Of a stretch of DNA of 48,671 nucleotides, positions 26,900 through 40,709 are shown piece by piece. The DNA is from Chitinophagales bacterium (GTDB lineage Bacteria > Bacteroidota > Bacteroidia > Chitinophagales > JADIYW01). Numbering within the stretch: the stretch's first letter is position 1; each line of letters opens with the position of its first letter. Position numbers and translations under genes: made by a program. Under the pieces are notes generated by a model. That model was not told the origin of the DNA and ran no database searches. It was given only the letters and a program-made list of their open reading frames with translations. The stretch spans positions 1 through 48,671 of the forward strand of contig JADKZZ010000018.1 in the NCBI GenBank assembly GCA_020848475.1. The letters run 5' to 3'.

Positions 26900-26913
26900 A
26901 TGACATCTATCAT
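26900..26913. promoter_or_regulatory. FNR/CRP-like palindrome ATGAC-ATCT-ATCAT upstream of fasciclin gene
   Basis: Half sites fit ATGAY-N4-ATCAT; cf. 38717-38730. Confidence 0.4.
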
Positions 26914-27005
26914 AATAAAACGTTATAAAGCATGACATTACGCATCTCAACTTCGCTCCTTTTGGCTTAAAATTGTAATGTAATTTTTAACCAAATTCAA
27001 CAAAA

Positions 27006-27569
27006 ATGAAAAATTATCTTTTAATGCTATTTGCAGTTACAATGTTACTATTTACTGCATGCAAGAACAATGAAGCAGCAGGCGATGCTGGTGCTGCAAG
27101 TGAAGAGTCTTCTCCTGCTGTCGGACAATCAGGTGTGCAAGATGATGTATCCAATCCTAACATCGTTCAGGTGGCTGCTGGCAGCAAAGACCACAGCACT
27201 TTAGTGGCTGCTGTTAAAGCAGCAGAACTGGTTGACGCATTAAGTAATGCTGGTCCGTTCACCGTATTTGCACCAACGAATGCTGCTTTCGATAAGTTGC
27301 CGAAAGGAACTGTTGAAGGGCTTTTAAAACCTGAGAAAAAAGAAGATTTAAAAAACATCTTAGAGTATCATACTTATGTTGGCTCTTTAAAAGCAGAGTA
27401 TTTCCAAGATGGACAATCTTTTGAGCAAGTGAACGCACAAAAGGTGACAATATCTGTAAAAGATGGAAAAACTTATGTGAATGGCACTGCGGAAATTGTT
27501 GCATCTATACCTACTTCAAATGGCATGATACATGTGGTTAATGAGGTATTGCTTCCACCGACAAAATAA
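27006..27569 (+). CDS. Fasciclin (FAS1) domain lipoprotein
   Basis: Lipobox LFTACK; STLVAAVKAAELVDALSNAGPFTVFAPTNAAFDKLPKGTVEGLL; NGMIHVVNEVLLP. Confidence 0.93.
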   Translation: MKNYLLMLFAVTMLLFTACKNNEAAGDAGAASEESSPAVGQSGVQDDVSNPNIVQVAAGSKDHSTLVAAVKAAELVDALSNAGPFTVFAPTNAAFDKLPKGTVEGLLKPEKKEDLKNILEYHTYVGSLKAEYFQDGQSFEQVNAQKVTISVKDGKTYVNGTAEIVASIPTSNGMIHVVNEVLLPPTK

Positions 27570-31805: not shown

Positions 31806-32192
31806 TCATTCTGACATCTCTTTTGGTATGATATTTTTTTGAATGATGTTGGATATATTGATGGAACGTTTTTTAATTAAATCTGCATTTTTGCCTGCAT
31901 ATAATTCATCGACTGTATCTGAAAACAACTTATTCCAGCGTTGGAAATGTGATTTTTTAATATTTGTCAATTGATGTAAATGTCGATGTAAATGAAGCGG
32001 ATTACCCTCATAATTTCCAGAGAAGAATAGCATATTTTCCCAAAAATTATACATCGTATTTAAGTGCTTTTCCCAATTAAACCCTTCAGGGTTCGTGAAG
32101 AAAGATTGCAATAGTTTATCTTCTTTGATTTTTGCATAAAACGCATTAACCAATGTTTCGATATCTTTTCTATTTTTTATGTCTTTTTTCAT
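31806..32192 (-). CDS. Group III truncated haemoglobin
   Basis: IETLVNAFYAKIKEDKLLQSFF, MYNFWENMLFFSGNYEGNPLHLHRHL, HFQRWNKLF. Confidence 0.85.
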   Translation of the reverse strand: MKKDIKNRKDIETLVNAFYAKIKEDKLLQSFFTNPEGFNWEKHLNTMYNFWENMLFFSGNYEGNPLHLHRHLHQLTNIKKSHFQRWNKLFSDTVDELYAGKNADLIKKRSINISNIIQKNIIPKEMSE

Positions 32193-32231
32193 TTTATTTC
32201 ACTTTTATATTTTATAAAAGCTGCTCAATTA

Positions 32232-32999
32232 TTATAAATCTTTTTTTCTAAATCTTACTAATGAAATCCAATAGGGAACAATAAACCACAAACAGAGTAA
32301 ACACAAACTGATAAGGAATCCTAAAGTCGTGCCAAAGAAATCTTTAAAAATGGCACCTGTATAACCTAGCATTGCTGAAACATCTAGATGAAGCAATATC
32401 AAAATTCTTGCTAAATCGACAGGACTGAGTGCTGTAATAATGACCATTATTTTCTCAATTGGATAATCAGAAAATTGAAATAATAAGAACAACACAATAC
32501 CATCAAACAACAAACAAAAATACAACCATAACATGATGGACATTCCTATGCCTTTTGCCTTGTCGCGTGTTGTAATAGAACTTAAGAAGGCAATGGAAAT
32601 AAACACAACTGATATTATTACACCTAAGAGCAACATCATAACGCCTGTATTTATTGGTGCATAAATTAATAATGGAATTCCCGCACCAATGATAAATGAA
32701 ACGATAAACGACATAGACAAGCCGATAAAAAGGCTAAACCAAATTTTTTTTCTAGCTATTGGCTGACTCAATAATAATTCAATAAACTCAGCACTGTTAT
32801 AAATATAAATAGTTGTAAATAAGATGGACACCAACGGAACTGTCAGTAAAATAATATTCAACAAGGTAAGCATGCCTTTAGTACTGCTATCTTCTAAGCT
32901 GAAAGCACTCCATGACAAAACAGCCAACATGATAGTATATGCTACAACTATTTTATTTTTGAGAATATCGATGATTACATATTTTATTATTCTGTTCAT
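32232..32999 (-). CDS. nosY: ABC transporter permease, NosY-like
   Basis: Six-TM ABC-2 type permease (SAEFIELLLSQPIARKKIWFSLFIGLS), adjacent to NosF/NosD. Confidence 0.85.
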   Translation of the reverse strand: MNRIIKYVIIDILKNKIVVAYTIMLAVLSWSAFSLEDSSTKGMLTLLNIILLTVPLVSILFTTIYIYNSAEFIELLLSQPIARKKIWFSLFIGLSMSFIVSFIIGAGIPLLIYAPINTGVMMLLLGVIISVVFISIAFLSSITTRDKAKGIGMSIMLWLYFCLLFDGIVLFLLFQFSDYPIEKIMVIITALSPVDLARILILLHLDVSAMLGYTGAIFKDFFGTTLGFLISLCLLCLWFIVPYWISLVRFRKKDL

Positions 33000-33754
33000 G
33001 ACTTAACACTTTGATTAATTGTAGATTGTGTGATTACATCTTTATTTCCTATTTTATTTTTTAAGATAAAAGCAATTGCTTTCGATATTTTTGTTTCTCC
33101 AGTATCATTTCTAAGCTGTTCTACGCTATGATGAAATTCTACTCTTCCATCTTGCATGAAAATAATTTGTGTAATCAAATCATCTAATTCACTAAGTAAA
33201 TGTGATGTAATCAGAATTAGTTTTCCTTTGTTTTTTTCTGTTATAATTTTTTCTTTTAAGATTTCTGAAGCCAAAGGATCGAGCCCTGCCGTTGGTTCAT
33301 CTAAGATTAAAATATCAGGATTAAATAAAAATGCTAAAGCTGCGCTTACCTTTTGTGTAGTGCCTCCAGATAGTGTTCCCATTGCTTTGCCATAAAGATG
33401 TTCCAATTCAAAAGACTTTATCAAATCTTCGTCTAGTGTTGATGTTGTTTGCCTGATTTCTTTCATCATTTGTAAGACTTGGCCAATCGTCATGTTTTGT
33501 GGATACCTACCAATTTGCGGCATATAGCCAATATGTTTACGATATTCGAAATTGGCTTTTGTATTTTCGCCGTTTACAATGATTTCGCCACTATCAGGAA
33601 TTACCATTCCTAAAATAGATTTGATGAGCGTTGTTTTTCCGCAGCCATTTGGGCCAATCAGTGCAATACATTCGCCTTTGTTGCATTGCAAATCGATGTG
33701 TTTTAACACTTCGAGTTTGGAAAAACGTTTTGATATTTGTTGGATGTTTATCAT
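32996..33754 (-). CDS. nosF: ABC transporter ATP-binding protein, NosF-like
   Basis: Walker A GPNGCGKTTLIKSI, signature LSGGTTQKVSAAL, Walker B ILILDEPTAGLDP. Confidence 0.9.
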   Translation of the reverse strand: MINIQQISKRFSKLEVLKHIDLQCNKGECIALIGPNGCGKTTLIKSILGMVIPDSGEIIVNGENTKANFEYRKHIGYMPQIGRYPQNMTIGQVLQMMKEIRQTTSTLDEDLIKSFELEHLYGKAMGTLSGGTTQKVSAALAFLFNPDILILDEPTAGLDPLASEILKEKIITEKNKGKLILITSHLLSELDDLITQIIFMQDGRVEFHHSVEQLRNDTGETKISKAIAFILKNKIGNKDVITQSTINQSVKS

Positions 33755-34986
33755 AGCAATAGTGGTCGCATTAGCGGTGAATTATCAATAAAATTATCAG
33801 GAGTAAGACTAGGAATAATTTTTTCTGATTTATCTAAAAGTGTTACCATAAAGCTTCTAAATAGTAACATGGCTGGTGGATTTTTTTCCACTATAACAGA
33901 AAACAAGCTTAAAGGATGGTAAGGCAAATCTCCAATTTTATCTTTATTTAAATCATAGCCTTCGTATTTGTCCCAATAATTATTATCGAATGTATTGAGC
34001 ACCAATGTACCGTTAGTACTAATATCAAAGGTGTTGGCAATAAAGTTATTTTTCTTGATGGTGTTGTCCATACAACTTGCTTGTATTTTCATTCCCCAGC
34101 CATTTTGCTTAATGCTGTTTTTTTCAGCAATGATACGGCTTGTGCCTTCCATAAAAATGCCTGTTGTATTATTTTCAAAATGGTTGCCAACAATATAGCT
34201 ATCTGAAATTTCTTTAAGCAATAAACCATACGCTGCATCACCCCAATTTTCAGAAAAGTAATTGTTATACATTTTCACATTTTTTGTAAACATCACGGCA
34301 ACACCTGCACCATTGTTTTTAAAGACATTACAAATGTATGCATCATCGTTAGAGAACATAAAATGCAGGCCATATCTAATGTTGTTGTTGGCAATATTCC
34401 GCCAGATAGTAGAGCCTGTCACAAATTCAAAATAAATGCCATCGCGATGTCCATCTACTTTATTACCTATTATCAAAAGGCTATCGCTTTTCCAACAATG
34501 AATACCATTTCCGATTTGTTGTTCTTCGATGCCATACGCTTTTATTTTGTTATTTCTAATGATGCAATGCTTGCCATATTGAATATAAATTCCAAAAAAA
34601 TTATCTTCTAGTATGCAGTTTTGTATCACCACATAATTGCTGTTATATACTTTTATGCCTCCAGGATCATCTAATGTAGCCACGCTTGAGCGTTGTATTA
34701 CAAAGCCATCTATTGTAACATTATTTGATTTAACAGAAAGTACTTCATACTTTTTTTGTCCATCAAGAATTGGCAGATTTTTCCCTACTAAGCTTAGCGG
34801 TTTATCAATGACAATATTACCTTCTTTATATACGCCTTTTAATACAATTATCGAATCGCCAGGCGATGCAACATGTACAGCAGTTTTTATTTTTGTATAT
34901 GGCTGTCCTTTCCCTACAACAATAGTTTTTCCAAGTACGTTGTGTACTAAGAAAAATAAAAAAACGATATAGAAAAATCTATTCAA
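33751..34986 (-). CDS. nosD: NosD, periplasmic right-handed beta-helix copper-insertion protein
   Basis: Signal peptide, parallel beta-helix repeats (NGIHCWKSDSLLIIGNKVDGHRDGIYFEFVTGS..., NNIRYGLHFMFSNDD). Confidence 0.92.
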   Translation of the reverse strand: MNRFFYIVFLFFLVHNVLGKTIVVGKGQPYTKIKTAVHVASPGDSIIVLKGVYKEGNIVIDKPLSLVGKNLPILDGQKKYEVLSVKSNNVTIDGFVIQRSSVATLDDPGGIKVYNSNYVVIQNCILEDNFFGIYIQYGKHCIIRNNKIKAYGIEEQQIGNGIHCWKSDSLLIIGNKVDGHRDGIYFEFVTGSTIWRNIANNNIRYGLHFMFSNDDAYICNVFKNNGAGVAVMFTKNVKMYNNYFSENWGDAAYGLLLKEISDSYIVGNHFENNTTGIFMEGTSRIIAEKNSIKQNGWGMKIQASCMDNTIKKNNFIANTFDISTNGTLVLNTFDNNYWDKYEGYDLNKDKIGDLPYHPLSLFSVIVEKNPPAMLLFRSFMVTLLDKSEKIIPSLTPDNFIDNSPLMRPLLL

Positions 34987-34987
34987 T

Positions 34988-36016
34988 TTATAAATTTAAA
35001 GACTTCCAATCCAATACACTTGTGTTTAATTTTTTTGCATATTCTTCTGCTTTCGCCTTGTCAGAAAATGCAGCAACATTACCGCCCATAGGACTTTTAA
35101 CATCAGCATGTTTTACATAAAATGCAGTTTCTACTGGTGTTAACAAGGTAGGTGTTGCAAAGTCTGCAACATACATCGCACCTATCGGCACCTGTTTATT
35201 TTCTGTGATATAGCCATGTAAACAAGAGATATCATCAAACTTATATGCTCTTCCTTTTTTTGTAATGACTTCTGTTCCAAATCGTCCATCGGCGATTGAC
35301 ATTTTACAATAATCACAATTATCTATATTTAATTTTATTGCTTGCGGTTCTGTGCTTACGCATGAAGTAAGTAGCGCAATAGATAAGAGCGAAAGCAATA
35401 TGCTTACAACAGGTTTTTGTTTTTTAAATTTAGAAAACCATCCTGCCTCGATGCTTACTGCTGCTAACATAAACACGCCACAAATAATAAACAAGCAGCC
35501 ACCATAAGATGGAATAGAAAAAGCGCCAAAATTCAATAGTTGTTTAAAGCCGATTAGCGGTGGTTGATATGCCATGCCTGGCACAACAATCGCTGCATTT
35601 GGGTCGAGGTTGTGGCCATAATCATATTCCCATCTATAAAAATCTATCATAGAAAGCACACCAAATAATGCGAATGCAATAAATAAAATATACACCAATT
35701 TCTTTTTGCCAATAAGTGCAGTAATCAAAGCAAATAATGCGAAAGCACCAATAATATATGGCAATACAGTGAATTCAATAAAATCATCAGCATGCAATGT
35801 TTTCATACCGATGTAATGGTTAAGTCCATTTATTATTTCAACATTGCCACCAAGTTTATACGTATAAATCAATAATTGTAAGCCTTCTGGATACTGCGGT
35901 GCATCTAAATCAATTCGCCAAAGTGGTACAAAAATGGAAATGACTAAAAAAACTGAAGAAAGAAATAATAATATCCGAGACAAATTGGATATTTTTTGTT
36001 CATTGACCTTGTCCAT
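34988..36016 (-). CDS. nosL: Membrane protein with C-terminal NosL domain
   Basis: N-terminal multi-TM; internal lipobox-like LLTSC; NosL motif DNCDYCKMSIADGRFGTEVITKKGRAYKFDDISCL. Confidence 0.85.
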   Translation of the reverse strand: MDKVNEQKISNLSRILLFLSSVFLVISIFVPLWRIDLDAPQYPEGLQLLIYTYKLGGNVEIINGLNHYIGMKTLHADDFIEFTVLPYIIGAFALFALITALIGKKKLVYILFIAFALFGVLSMIDFYRWEYDYGHNLDPNAAIVVPGMAYQPPLIGFKQLLNFGAFSIPSYGGCLFIICGVFMLAAVSIEAGWFSKFKKQKPVVSILLSLLSIALLTSCVSTEPQAIKLNIDNCDYCKMSIADGRFGTEVITKKGRAYKFDDISCLHGYITENKQVPIGAMYVADFATPTLLTPVETAFYVKHADVKSPMGGNVAAFSDKAKAEEYAKKLNTSVLDWKSLNL

Positions 36017-36041
36017 GATTATGATTTAAAATTAAAAATAA

Positions 36042-36074
36042 AAGGAGCAGAGAAATGAAATTTCGCTGCTCCTT
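36042..36074 (-). promoter_or_regulatory. Strong hairpin between nosZ and nosL (attenuator/terminator or mRNA stabiliser)
   Basis: Minus strand AAGGAGCAG-C-GAAAT-TTC-ATTTC-T-CTGCTCCTT followed by TT and AT-rich sequence. Confidence 0.65.
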
Positions 36075-36095
36075 AAAAAAATGTTCACTTATTTC

Positions 36096-38087
36096 TTATT
36101 TCGCAGCTGGTGCTGGTGCTGGCTCTGTTTTTCCGATGTGGAAAGACAGTGGCACATTGCTACCTGCTGGCGATACGCGTACATATCCTTGCATTTCTTG
36201 GTGTAAAGCACTACAGAAGTCAGTACAATACATTGGGAAAATACCTGTTCTATCTGGTACCCATTTTAAAGTTACTGTTTCACCAGGCATGATTAATAAT
36301 TCGCCATTGTTTGCTCCTTTAATTGCGAAACCATGAGGAACGTCCCAATCTTGCTCTAAGTTTGTAACGTGGAAATAAACTTCATCGCCCATTTTAATAC
36401 CTTCAATATTATCAGGTGCTAAGTGAGAGCGAATAGCAGTCATAAATACATCAACACGATTACCGTTGCGTATTACTCTAGTTTCTTTTTCACCTTTTGA
36501 CACATAAGGATGTTTGTTGTCATCAATTTTAAAGATTTTCACTTGATTTTTAGAAATCAAATCAGCAGGCACTGCTTGCGCGTAATGCGGTTCACCAATA
36601 GTAGGATAATCTAAAATTAATTTCATTTTCTCACCGCTGATGTCATACAATTGTGCACTTTGAGACAACTCAGGACCAGTAGGTAAATAACGGTCTTTTG
36701 TAATTTTGTTGTAAGCAACCAAGTATTTACCAAATGGTTTTTTAGTATTACCACCAGGCACCATTAAGTGGCCCACAGAGTAGTAAGTTGGCTGTCTGTC
36801 GATTACTTTCAAGTCTTTAATATTCCATTTCACAACTTCAGAAGACACGAAGAAAGAAGTATAAGCATTACCATTCGCATCAAACTCAGTATGCAAAGGT
36901 CCTAAGCCTGGTTTTTTTACTTCGCCATACAATGCTGCTTCGTATTTAATTACAGGAATACCATCATATTTTTCAGCTTCGAATTGTTTATCCGCAATTG
37001 CTTTTTGGATTTTATCAAAGCTAAACACTGGCAATAAAGCTGCTAATTTACCACTACCTACAATGTACTCACCTGTTGGGTCAACGTCGCAACCGTGTGG
37101 TGATTTAGGGCATGGAATAAAATATACGATATCAGGGAATTCAGCCACATCTAATACAGTCACTTCATTTTTCATTTCTGAAGTAGCGGTATGTGTTTCT
37201 TCGCTGAATTTATTATGCGCATATTTTGCAGTTTGTTTCTTGCCTTTTCCTGCTTTGATATATTCTTCAGCTTTTTTCCAGTTTACAGCCATGATGAAGT
37301 CTTTATCTCTTTGAGATGCGTTTACTTCTAACAATGTATTTGCTTGTTCTGTATTATAAGTACTGAAGAAGAACCAGCCATGAGATTTGCCTTTACCAGC
37401 ACGAGCTAAGTCAAAGTTAACACCTGGCGTTTTTAATTGGAATGCAACATTCATTTCTCCATTTTCTTTATTTACAGAAACAAAGCTAATGTGACCTTTG
37501 AAGTTTTGTTTATAGGTGCTGATAGGAACGTCGCCATTCACATTGTCTGCTGGCACGCTAAAGCGAGTACCTGCAACAATGTATTCAGAATTTTCTGTTC
37601 CGAACGGTGAACTGTGATTACCGCCACTATTTGGTAATTCTAAAATTTCTGCTGTACGGAAAGTTTTTAAGTCGATACGTGCTAAACGAGGTGTGTTATT
37701 ACCATTAACAAAAACCCACTTACCATCAGCTACACCATCAGTCATTGACATTTCAACGTGGTGCAAGTCATCCCATGGAACAAAGCCATGCGATGTATTC
37801 AACATCGGTTTTGTTTCTTCGCTGTAGCCCCAGCCTTTTTCTGGGTCAACAGAGAAAACAGGAATCACGCGTAACAGACGACCACTTGGTAATCCGTACA
37901 CACTTAATTGTCCGCTGAAACCACCTGACACGAAGTTATAGAATTCGTCGTATTTTCCTGGTGCGACGTACACTTTTTGAGCAGCATCGCCACTTACAGC
38001 GCTTCCTGCATTTTTTGGTTTACATGCTGTGAACGTTAGCATAGAGATAGCAACTACCACTAAGGTCCCGAATATGCCCTTTTTCAT
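36096..38087 (-). CDS. nosZ: Nitrous-oxide reductase, clade II (Sec/lipoprotein-type signal)
   Basis: Signal ends in lipobox FTACK; DDLHHVEMS, SPHGCDVDPTGEYIVGSGK, GPLHTEFDANGNAYTSFFVSSEVVKWN; CuA MYCTDFCSALHQEMQGYVRV. Confidence 0.95.
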   Translation of the reverse strand: MKKGIFGTLVVVAISMLTFTACKPKNAGSAVSGDAAQKVYVAPGKYDEFYNFVSGGFSGQLSVYGLPSGRLLRVIPVFSVDPEKGWGYSEETKPMLNTSHGFVPWDDLHHVEMSMTDGVADGKWVFVNGNNTPRLARIDLKTFRTAEILELPNSGGNHSSPFGTENSEYIVAGTRFSVPADNVNGDVPISTYKQNFKGHISFVSVNKENGEMNVAFQLKTPGVNFDLARAGKGKSHGWFFFSTYNTEQANTLLEVNASQRDKDFIMAVNWKKAEEYIKAGKGKKQTAKYAHNKFSEETHTATSEMKNEVTVLDVAEFPDIVYFIPCPKSPHGCDVDPTGEYIVGSGKLAALLPVFSFDKIQKAIADKQFEAEKYDGIPVIKYEAALYGEVKKPGLGPLHTEFDANGNAYTSFFVSSEVVKWNIKDLKVIDRQPTYYSVGHLMVPGGNTKKPFGKYLVAYNKITKDRYLPTGPELSQSAQLYDISGEKMKLILDYPTIGEPHYAQAVPADLISKNQVKIFKIDDNKHPYVSKGEKETRVIRNGNRVDVFMTAIRSHLAPDNIEGIKMGDEVYFHVTNLEQDWDVPHGFAIKGANNGELLIMPGETVTLKWVPDRTGIFPMYCTDFCSALHQEMQGYVRVSPAGSNVPLSFHIGKTEPAPAPAAK

Positions 38088-38117
38088 ATGATTTATTTTT
38101 AGTTTAAAAAGTCTTGA

Positions 38118-38621
38118 CTATTTTACGCCGTCATTTTTACGCATAAACTCGTAAAGTTGTCTTGCCTCATCATCAGAAAGATTTTGATTTGGCATTCTCA
38201 CTAAACAAATTTCCAATTGTGCTTGTGCTTCTGGATCTTTATCCAACATTACATCTGTATTTGTAATGAAGTTCATAATCCATTCTGGTGTTCTTTTTTT
38301 AGTTACATCTTTCCAACCTGGACCCACTAATTTTTCGTCAGTTAATTTATGGCAAGATGAACATTTAACACCATATACCTTTTCACCACTTGATGCTAAT
38401 GCTGCATCTAATGTTGCGCCAACTTCTACGTTTGTAAATTTACCTTCACCTCTTTTAGGATCGTAAGAAGGATTTCCATTTTCAGTAGTTGCTGGTGCTT
38501 CTGTACTTTCAGTGCTTTCAGTACCTTCCGTAGAGAAGTCATCTTTGTTCGGATTTGAATTACATGCATTAATAATTACCATAGCTGCGGTAATAGACAT
38601 AATTAAAAATAATTTTTTCAT
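38118..38621 (-). CDS. Cytochrome c lipoprotein (nos-associated)
   Basis: Lipobox IINACN; heme c motif CSSCHKL; MPNQNLSDDEARQLYEFMR. Confidence 0.9.
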   Translation of the reverse strand: MKKLFLIMSITAAMVIINACNSNPNKDDFSTEGTESTESTEAPATTENGNPSYDPKRGEGKFTNVEVGATLDAALASSGEKVYGVKCSSCHKLTDEKLVGPGWKDVTKKRTPEWIMNFITNTDVMLDKDPEAQAQLEICLVRMPNQNLSDDEARQLYEFMRKNDGVK

Positions 38622-38692
38622 ACTTGATATTTTTTTTCGTGTACAATGTTAGTACAAGTTAATAAAATAAATTATGATTATCGTCATGTTTT

Positions 38693-38715: not shown

Positions 38716-38731
38716 TATGATTTATATCATA
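38716..38731. promoter_or_regulatory. FNR/DNR-like operator TATGAT-TTAT-ATCATA
   Basis: Perfect 6-bp arms; fits NTGAT-N4-ATCAN, between divergent cyt c-nosZ and Crp/Fnr regulator genes. Confidence 0.6.
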
Positions 38732-38815
38732 TTATTGGGTGCCGAATGTCATGTTTAGCATTTATGTTTCTATATACCTTTATAATAATATGTTGTTGAG
38801 AAAGACACACTGTAT

Positions 38816-39485: not shown

Positions 39486-40709
39486 ATGAACACCGACTCA
39501 TACATTCGACGATATCTTAAAATTTCATTATTAAACATAGCCATTGTGGCATTACTAGGCTCTATACTTCGATATAAAATATTGTATTCATTGCCATTTT
39601 TAGATCAAAAACATGTACAACACAGCCATTCACATTTTGCATTTGCTGGCTGGGTAACACAGACATTAATGGTATTAATGGTAGCCTATCTTTCTAAGCA
39701 AAAAAATGAAAATAAATTTATCGATTATAAAAATTTACTGATTGGCAATTTGCTTAGTGCGTATGGCATGCTGCTTGCTTTTCCAATACAAGGATATGGA
39801 TTTGTGTCCATTACTTTTTCTACTTTATCTGTTTTTGTATCTTACTTTTTTGCTGTCAAATATTGGAAAGATTTATCGTCAATAAAAAGCCACAACACCA
39901 CTCATTTATGGTTCAAAGGCGCATTGATTTTTGCTGTTATTTCATCTATCGGCACCTTTGCGCTTGCCTATATGATGTCGAATAGGATAGCGCATCAAAA
40001 TTGGTACTTAGCTTCTATTTATTACTATTTACATTTTCAATACAATGGTTGGTTTTTCTTCGCATGTGCTGGTTTATTACAATCTATTTTGCCAGCAGGT
40101 ATTGTACATCAACACAAAAAGTTAAGTTATATATTTTGGTTATTTGCCAGCTCATGTGTACCTGCCTACTTACTATCGACGCTTTGGATGAAAATGCCAA
40201 GTTGGCTCTATGGAATAGTCATCATAGCAGCACTCATGCAAGTTGTTGCATGGTATATGTTTATACAAATTTTATTACAACACCGTCAATTGCTCAAAGA
40301 TAAATTCTCTTCACATGGGGCTTGGGTGCTCATCTTATCTGCAATGGCGTTAAGTATTAAACTGATATTACAAATTGGCTCTACAATTCCTGCATTAGGG
40401 CAATGGGCATTTGGCTTTAGATCAGTGGTTATTGCTTATTTACACTTAGTGTTATTAGGTGTTATTTCTTTGTTTTTGCTTGGATTTATTTTTACAGAAA
40501 AACATATCAAAGTGACCAAGCTCAGCACATTGGGTTTATGGATATTTGTAGCAGGTGTTTTTTTAAATGAATTTATTTTATTGTTACAAGGCGTTGCTTC
40601 CATAAAATATATTCTTGTTCCCTATAGCAATGAAGCCTTACTAGTAACTGCTCTTATTTTATTAAGCGGTGCGCTGATGATGTTTATTTCTAAGTTCAGA
40701 AATGAATAA
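39486..40709 (+). CDS. Polytopic membrane protein with His motifs, distantly resembling heme-copper oxidase subunit I / NnrS-type proteins
   Basis: About 12 hydrophobic segments; HSHSHFAFAGWVTQ, YYLHFQYNGWFFF, AYLHLVLLGVISLF. Confidence 0.55.
   Translation: MNTDSYIRRYLKISLLNIAIVALLGSILRYKILYSLPFLDQKHVQHSHSHFAFAGWVTQTLMVLMVAYLSKQKNENKFIDYKNLLIGNLLSAYGMLLAFPIQGYGFVSITFSTLSVFVSYFFAVKYWKDLSSIKSHNTTHLWFKGALIFAVISSIGTFALAYMMSNRIAHQNWYLASIYYYLHFQYNGWFFFACAGLLQSILPAGIVHQHKKLSYIFWLFASSCVPAYLLSTLWMKMPSWLYGIVIIAALMQVVAWYMFIQILLQHRQLLKDKFSSHGAWVLILSAMALSIKLILQIGSTIPALGQWAFGFRSVVIAYLHLVLLGVISLFLLGFIFTEKHIKVTKLSTLGLWIFVAGVFLNEFILLLQGVASIKYILVPYSNEALLVTALILLSGALMMFISKFRNE

Follow-up and report, generated by a model that had tools for sequence, protein, structure and literature searches.

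The 194-bp gap between the divergent nitrous-oxide reductase (nos) operon and regulator gene of a Chitinophagales bacterium very probably contains a real, conserved two-promoter Crp/Fnr switch with predicted operators. In dozens of relatives a set of sites has retained constant spacing to each of the two promoters, which makes it very probable that the switch serves both. The switch is probably read by Crp/Fnr dimers, with the divergent regulator activating nos and itself in response to a signal of the NO type and an FNR-type paralog providing a further input. Switches of this type are already known from other bacteria; the present regulator is new for the lineage, going by the literature searched. 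The window, that is, the whole stretch of 48,671 bp that was analysed, corresponds to contig C18 of a 2.68-Mb genome in 228 contigs. A Por secretion tail among its genes and the type of its promoters assign this genome to the Bacteroidota. The features discussed are collected in Table 1.

The palindrome and its conservation

The initial annotation had described a perfect palindrome with 6-bp arms and a 4-bp spacer at 38716-38731. The sequence, TATGATTTATATCATA (TATGAT-TTAT-ATCATA), is present as stated. No other exact copy exists in the window, and none of 100 dinucleotide shuffles yielded one. A search tolerating two mismatches shows no enrichment of the motif across the window (9 matches seen, 6.8 expected), so the lone sequence is suggestive at best and it is comparison that makes the palindrome significant. 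The comparison comprised 41 gaps, from the window and from related genomes in which the regulator is divergent to the cytochrome c-nosZ genes. Exact ATGAY-N4-RTCAT sites number 40 in these gaps, whereas 200 shuffles gave 0.11 on average and 2 at most; at least one exact site was found in 33 of the 41. The density is 4.26 sites per kb in the gaps and drops to 0.068 per kb elsewhere in these loci. The arms of the sites are 87% pairwise identical and the spacers 37%, so that common descent of the entire sequence does not simply account for the pattern. The motif is thus kept upstream of nosZ in relatives, and the proposal of an FNR/DNR-type operator region is supported by its conservation across about 40 genomes. 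A functionless AT-rich inverted repeat arising by chance would be compatible with relaxed matches in the window that are no commoner than expected (9 vs 6.8). Conservation of both sequence and spacing in about 40 genomes makes this scarcely credible, and the cross-genome site counts refute it.

Promoter architecture

The -7 promoter consensus of Bacteroidota is TAnnTTTG (PMC7366714), and the distance from each site to the nearest -7 element resembling it was measured. In the 41 gaps these distances peak sharply, at 22 bp for nos and at 44 bp for the regulator. After refined calling, the nos-side site lies 22-23 bp from the -7 element in 39 of 41 gaps. The regulator-side site lies exactly 44 bp away in 26 of 41, together with an RTCAT half-site 22 bp downstream, and in 26 aligned gaps TCAT at the offset of this half-site is conserved at 84-96% per base.

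A second full site, ATGATTATCGTCAT, and the half-site GTCAT had been missed by the initial annotation, which attributed control of nos and of the regulator itself to the palindrome. Control of both agrees with the presence of sites placed for both, but the palindrome fits the regulator promoter and the nos site is a separate one. By its position 44 bp before the regulator -7 element (about -63), the palindrome is assigned to the regulator's own promoter, which it most likely serves, and ATGATTATCGTCAT is predicted to be the class II activator-position site of the nos promoter (about -41), both positions presupposing that the consensus-matched -7 elements are right. Divergent regulators often exert negative autoregulation, and one site centre lies between both promoters, as might be expected if the regulator repressed nos and its own gene. 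Such repression is nevertheless very unlikely, given that the site centres are found upstream of the predicted -7 elements: at about -41 and -63, they occupy positions from which Crp/Fnr proteins activate.

Table 1. Features of the nos-regulator locus, of the fasciclin promoter in the window and of the paralog locus (sites and -7 elements are predicted)
Feature	Position	Strand	Remarks
nos operon, overall	31806-38621	-	cytochrome c, nosZ, nosB-L fusion, nosD, nosF, nosY, truncated globin
c-type cytochrome, first nos-operon gene	38118-38621	-	Pfam Cytochrom_C; position conserved
nosZ, clade II Sec-dependent nitrous-oxide reductase	36096-38087	-	TIGR04246, E=1e-280
nosB-L fusion, nosD, nosF, nosY, truncated globin	31806-36016	-	Pfam/NCBIfam; order same in relatives
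nos -7 element	38644-38651	-	TAACATTG; TAATCTTG in most relatives
Full operator, nos operon	38674-38687		ATGATTATCGTCAT; about -41, exactly 22 bp before nos -7
Full operator, regulator promoter	38717-38730		ATGATTTATATCAT; palindrome core; centre about -63, exactly 44 bp before TACCTTTA
Half-site GTCAT, regulator promoter	38748-38752	+	about -41; 22 bp in register with full site
Regulator -7 element	38775-38782	+	TACCTTTA; TAnnTTTG-like octamer, conserved at fixed spacing
Crp/Fnr-family regulator, 207 aa	38816-39439	+	contains GLRVETVIRVIK; recognition helix GLRVETVIR
407-aa, 12-helix membrane protein	39486-40709	+	co-directional with regulator; adjoins most regulator orthologues
Fasciclin-domain gene	27006-27569	+	downstream of dnaA; two predicted operators at 26900-26945
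Fasciclin operator 1	26900-26913		ATGACATCTATCAT
Fasciclin operator 2	26932-26945		ATGACATTACGCAT; 22 bp before TAAAATTG (26968-26975)
FNR-type paralog locus L110	G000:C22:5000-23932		neighbours ccoNO, ccoP, ccoG, FixI-type P-ATPase, RIC-like hemerythrin, hemF

The divergent regulator

The regulator matches PF00027 (cNMP_binding, E=3e-22) and PF13545 (HTH_Crp_2, E=9e-10) in Pfam, and has the N-terminal cNMP-binding-like domain and the C-terminal winged helix-turn-helix of the CRP/FNR superfamily. Its AlphaFold model has a mean pLDDT of 93, and the best PDB matches are CRP structures (TM about 0.8). E176 and R180 align with E181 and R185 of CRP. All regulators of the group have Glu where CRP has E181, and the helix TGLRVETVIR is nearly invariant among them. 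The protein has two cysteines, C32 and C87, neither of them conserved in orthologues, and no conserved Cys column was found among 52 homologues. It therefore lacks the N-terminal cysteine cluster that holds the 4Fe-4S centre in FNR, as had been claimed. A CRP of the cAMP-dependent type was rejected, as the cAMP contacts R82/S83 and T127/S128 correspond to Y/A and K/F in a profile alignment to CRP. The only well-conserved C-helix histidine of the regulator group is Leu in the window protein.

The protein had been labelled a DNR-like or other non-Fe-S sensor; the likeness to DNR is apt for its likely way of working and doubtful for its descent. CRP is the closest match in a PDB sequence search (67 bits vs 42 bits for DNR) and in the profile comparison (108 vs 90 bits), and these scores speak against descent from DNR. 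In the best model, the regulator would be an activator that acts on both nos and its own gene, resembling DNR in how it works.

Of 399 genomes from the order, 66 contain orthologues of the regulator (E up to 1e-30). About 40 of these orthologues lie divergent to cytc-nosZLDFY, in most cases followed by the 407-aa protein, and linkage to denitrification operons is likewise a mark of DNR genes. A related-locus search of genome contigs returned a single match, an unrelated alpha-proteobacterial one. In other families of the class (loci L252-L258, L263-L265, L267, L269 and L271), regulator homologues are mostly followed by the motif, a membrane protein of about 95 aa that was assigned to no family, and a truncated globin.

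The FNR-type paralog and the identity of the binder

A Cys-rich Crp/Fnr paralog is encoded on contig C22. It carries the helix GTATETVIR and an N-terminal CxxC-x8-C, and tandem motif copies 22 bp apart are present at its locus. The fit between the recognition helix and the palindrome had been offered as evidence for the divergent regulator. This match proved non-diagnostic, and the helix was rejected as proof of the binder's identity, because the paralog has the same ETVIR and the motif nearby. The 44/22-bp layout is also found near orthologues of the paralog, including relatives that have no nos regulator (G002, G003, G005 and G008), and the motif thus appears to be common to both regulators. 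FNR-type homologues occur in all 40 genomes tested, so their absence cannot be used to separate the two.

The paralog might mainly bind the symmetric sites, the palindrome included. Oxygen would then control both nos and the regulator gene, leaving the divergent regulator to act elsewhere or only to fine-tune. The paralog's ETVIR contacts and cysteine motif agree with this, as do the shared layout where the nos regulator is missing and the symmetric -41 sites in nos promoters without a dedicated regulator. This is nonetheless unlikely. The motif stays beside distant homologues of the dedicated regulator at unrelated genes, a CGCAT half-site occurs only in those nos promoters that have the dedicated regulator, and the conserved divergent pairing speaks for local control. 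Binding by the divergent regulator is therefore the preferred reading.

The half-site variant was studied in the 41 nos promoters and in a comparison set of 40, from genomes picked for having no close regulator beside nos. With refined calling, the promoter-proximal half is CGCAT (ATGCG on the other strand) in 21 of 41 nos sites, and RTCAT or near it in the others. By one common rule, CGCAT was found in 19 of 41 nos promoters with the dedicated regulator vs 0 of 40 without; the variant follows the clades of the regulator tree, with 5 changes, and the Fisher p of 2e-7 therefore exaggerates how independent the cases are. A site of any kind at -41 is present in 37/41 nos promoters with the dedicated regulator vs 23/40 without, the 23 being of a symmetric type, and about 14 of the latter 40 have a perfect symmetric site upstream. 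Of 399 genomes, 16 have the composite CAAGATTA-N22-ATGCG-N4-RTCAT, which in every case lies in the gap between regulator and cytochrome c; there were 0 control matches. The asymmetric nos site, formed by an ATGAT half of the FNR/DNR type and a promoter-facing ATGCG half of the NnrR type, could be a deliberate hybrid operator that admits the dedicated regulator and excludes the FNR-type paralog, which would read symmetric sites, a doubtful proposal at present.

The nos operon and the downstream membrane protein

The operon is a clade II nos cluster, with a Sec-dependent NosZ (TIGR04246 above cut-off), NosB, L, D, F and Y and a cytochrome c. The NosL gene (34988-36016, minus strand) encodes a NosB-L fusion with the signatures LNHYIGM and YGHN. 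A NosB-L fusion has been described for some Flavobacterium (PMC9697520).

The 407-aa protein next to the regulator matched no Pfam or NCBIfam family. Its AlphaFold model (pLDDT 93) shows about 12 long helices, and Foldseek retrieved cbb3 CcoN and NorB with TM of about 0.7 and 11-13% identity. H48, H183 and H320 are invariant. According to the model, its fold is like that of heme-copper-oxidase subunit I, and the protein is possibly an undescribed NnrS-like or oxidase-like one.

Predicted regulon

The regulon was called from pattern searches of the genome. ATGAY-N4-RTCAT occurs 28 times vs 14 for the reversed pattern, and a related pattern that includes the -7 element at 22 bp gave 11 matches and its reversed control 1. 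Motif sites lie ahead of nirK (TIGR02376), a norC-norB-like pair, ccoNO and hemN (TIGR00538), as well as genes for a RIC-like hemerythrin, a universal stress protein and the fasciclin protein of the window. The norC-norB-like pair and the copper nitrite reductase gene (TIGR02376) are located at L114 and L119 (contigs C94 and C195), with the motif upstream of each. Judging by its sequence, the genome would seem to equip the bacterium for the reduction of nitrite to N2.

One of the two fasciclin operators is of the CGCAT type and lies at the -41 position; CGCAT as a strictly nos-only half-site was therefore rejected. In relatives, the fasciclin gene is part of the nos cluster or adjoins it, and often has a site of its own.

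Proposed mechanism and comparison with known systems

Dimers of the Crp/Fnr family would recognise ATGAY-N4-RTCAT in the gap. The divergently encoded regulator would bind there as an activator of cytc-nosZ(BL)DFY-globin, and also of its own gene and the adjoining one for the 407-aa membrane protein. At low oxygen it may respond to nitric oxide or to another, related signal of the nitrogen-oxide kind. Distant homologues with the same recognition helix have the motif beside a globin and a small membrane protein or hemerythrin, beside RIC and a NorB-like protein (so named from its sequence, with no NCBIfam match), or beside nos. These neighbours point, by association, to NO, which is the best guess for the signal. 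The FNR-type paralog, encoded beside cbb3 oxidase genes, would read this motif too; it may thereby act on the promoter of the regulator gene, in the way that FNR/ANR stands above DNR.

DNR is known from Pseudomonas and beta-proteobacteria and binds the box TTGAT-N4-ATCAA (PMC1274295). Like DNR, which is tied to nos, nor and nir, the regulator is a Crp/Fnr protein without the Fe-S cysteine cluster, and it would use an FNR-like box (PMC1274295). Heme binding and activation by NO are further marks of DNR, to which the globin, RIC, NorB-like and nos neighbours would offer a link by association. DNR works downstream of an FNR-type oxygen sensor, and a similar cascade is proposed here. In Dinoroseobacter shibae, the oxygen-sensing FnrL stands above denitrification-specific Dnr regulators (PMC5398030); in the present genome the cascade would be arranged likewise. 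Unlike the DNR box, the half-site is ATGAY and not TTGAT, with A instead of T as the outer base, although the spacing and the GAT/ATC core are the same. The regulator sequence is also nearer to CRP, and its promoter context is the TAnnTTTG of Bacteroidota. The NnrR of alpha-proteobacteria recognises ctTTGcgnnnncgCAAag, with the half-site TTGCG (PMC1274295). Both regulators are associated with nos (NnrR also with nor and nir), and the TGCG of NnrR resembles the ATGCG in 21 of 41 nos sites; in contrast to the palindromic TTGCG-N4-CGCAA, only one half-site here is of this type and the other is ATGAY. With FNR the regulator shares the core contacts (equivalents of E209/R213) and a similar box, and a likely FNR-type paralog is present in the genome. 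It differs from FNR by the missing N-terminal cysteines and by Ile at the equivalent of Ser212.

No report of a nos regulator from Bacteroidota was found in the literature searched. The nearest work on nos regulation is a correlation study in Nitrosophilus (PMC11539149). A meta-regulon study of a reactor found no evidence of Crp/Fnr control of denitrification in the MAGs of Ignavibacteria, Flavobacteriales and Saprospiraceae that it covered (PMC8510549).

Bacteroidota with clade II nos are important sinks of N2O. For these organisms, the analysis provides a candidate nos regulator, predicted operators at two promoters and a predicted nitrite-to-N2 regulon. The swap of the half-site from RTCAT to CGCAT is a directly testable difference, and, if the hybrid-operator reading were true, N2O reduction would be controlled separately from general microaerobic genes.
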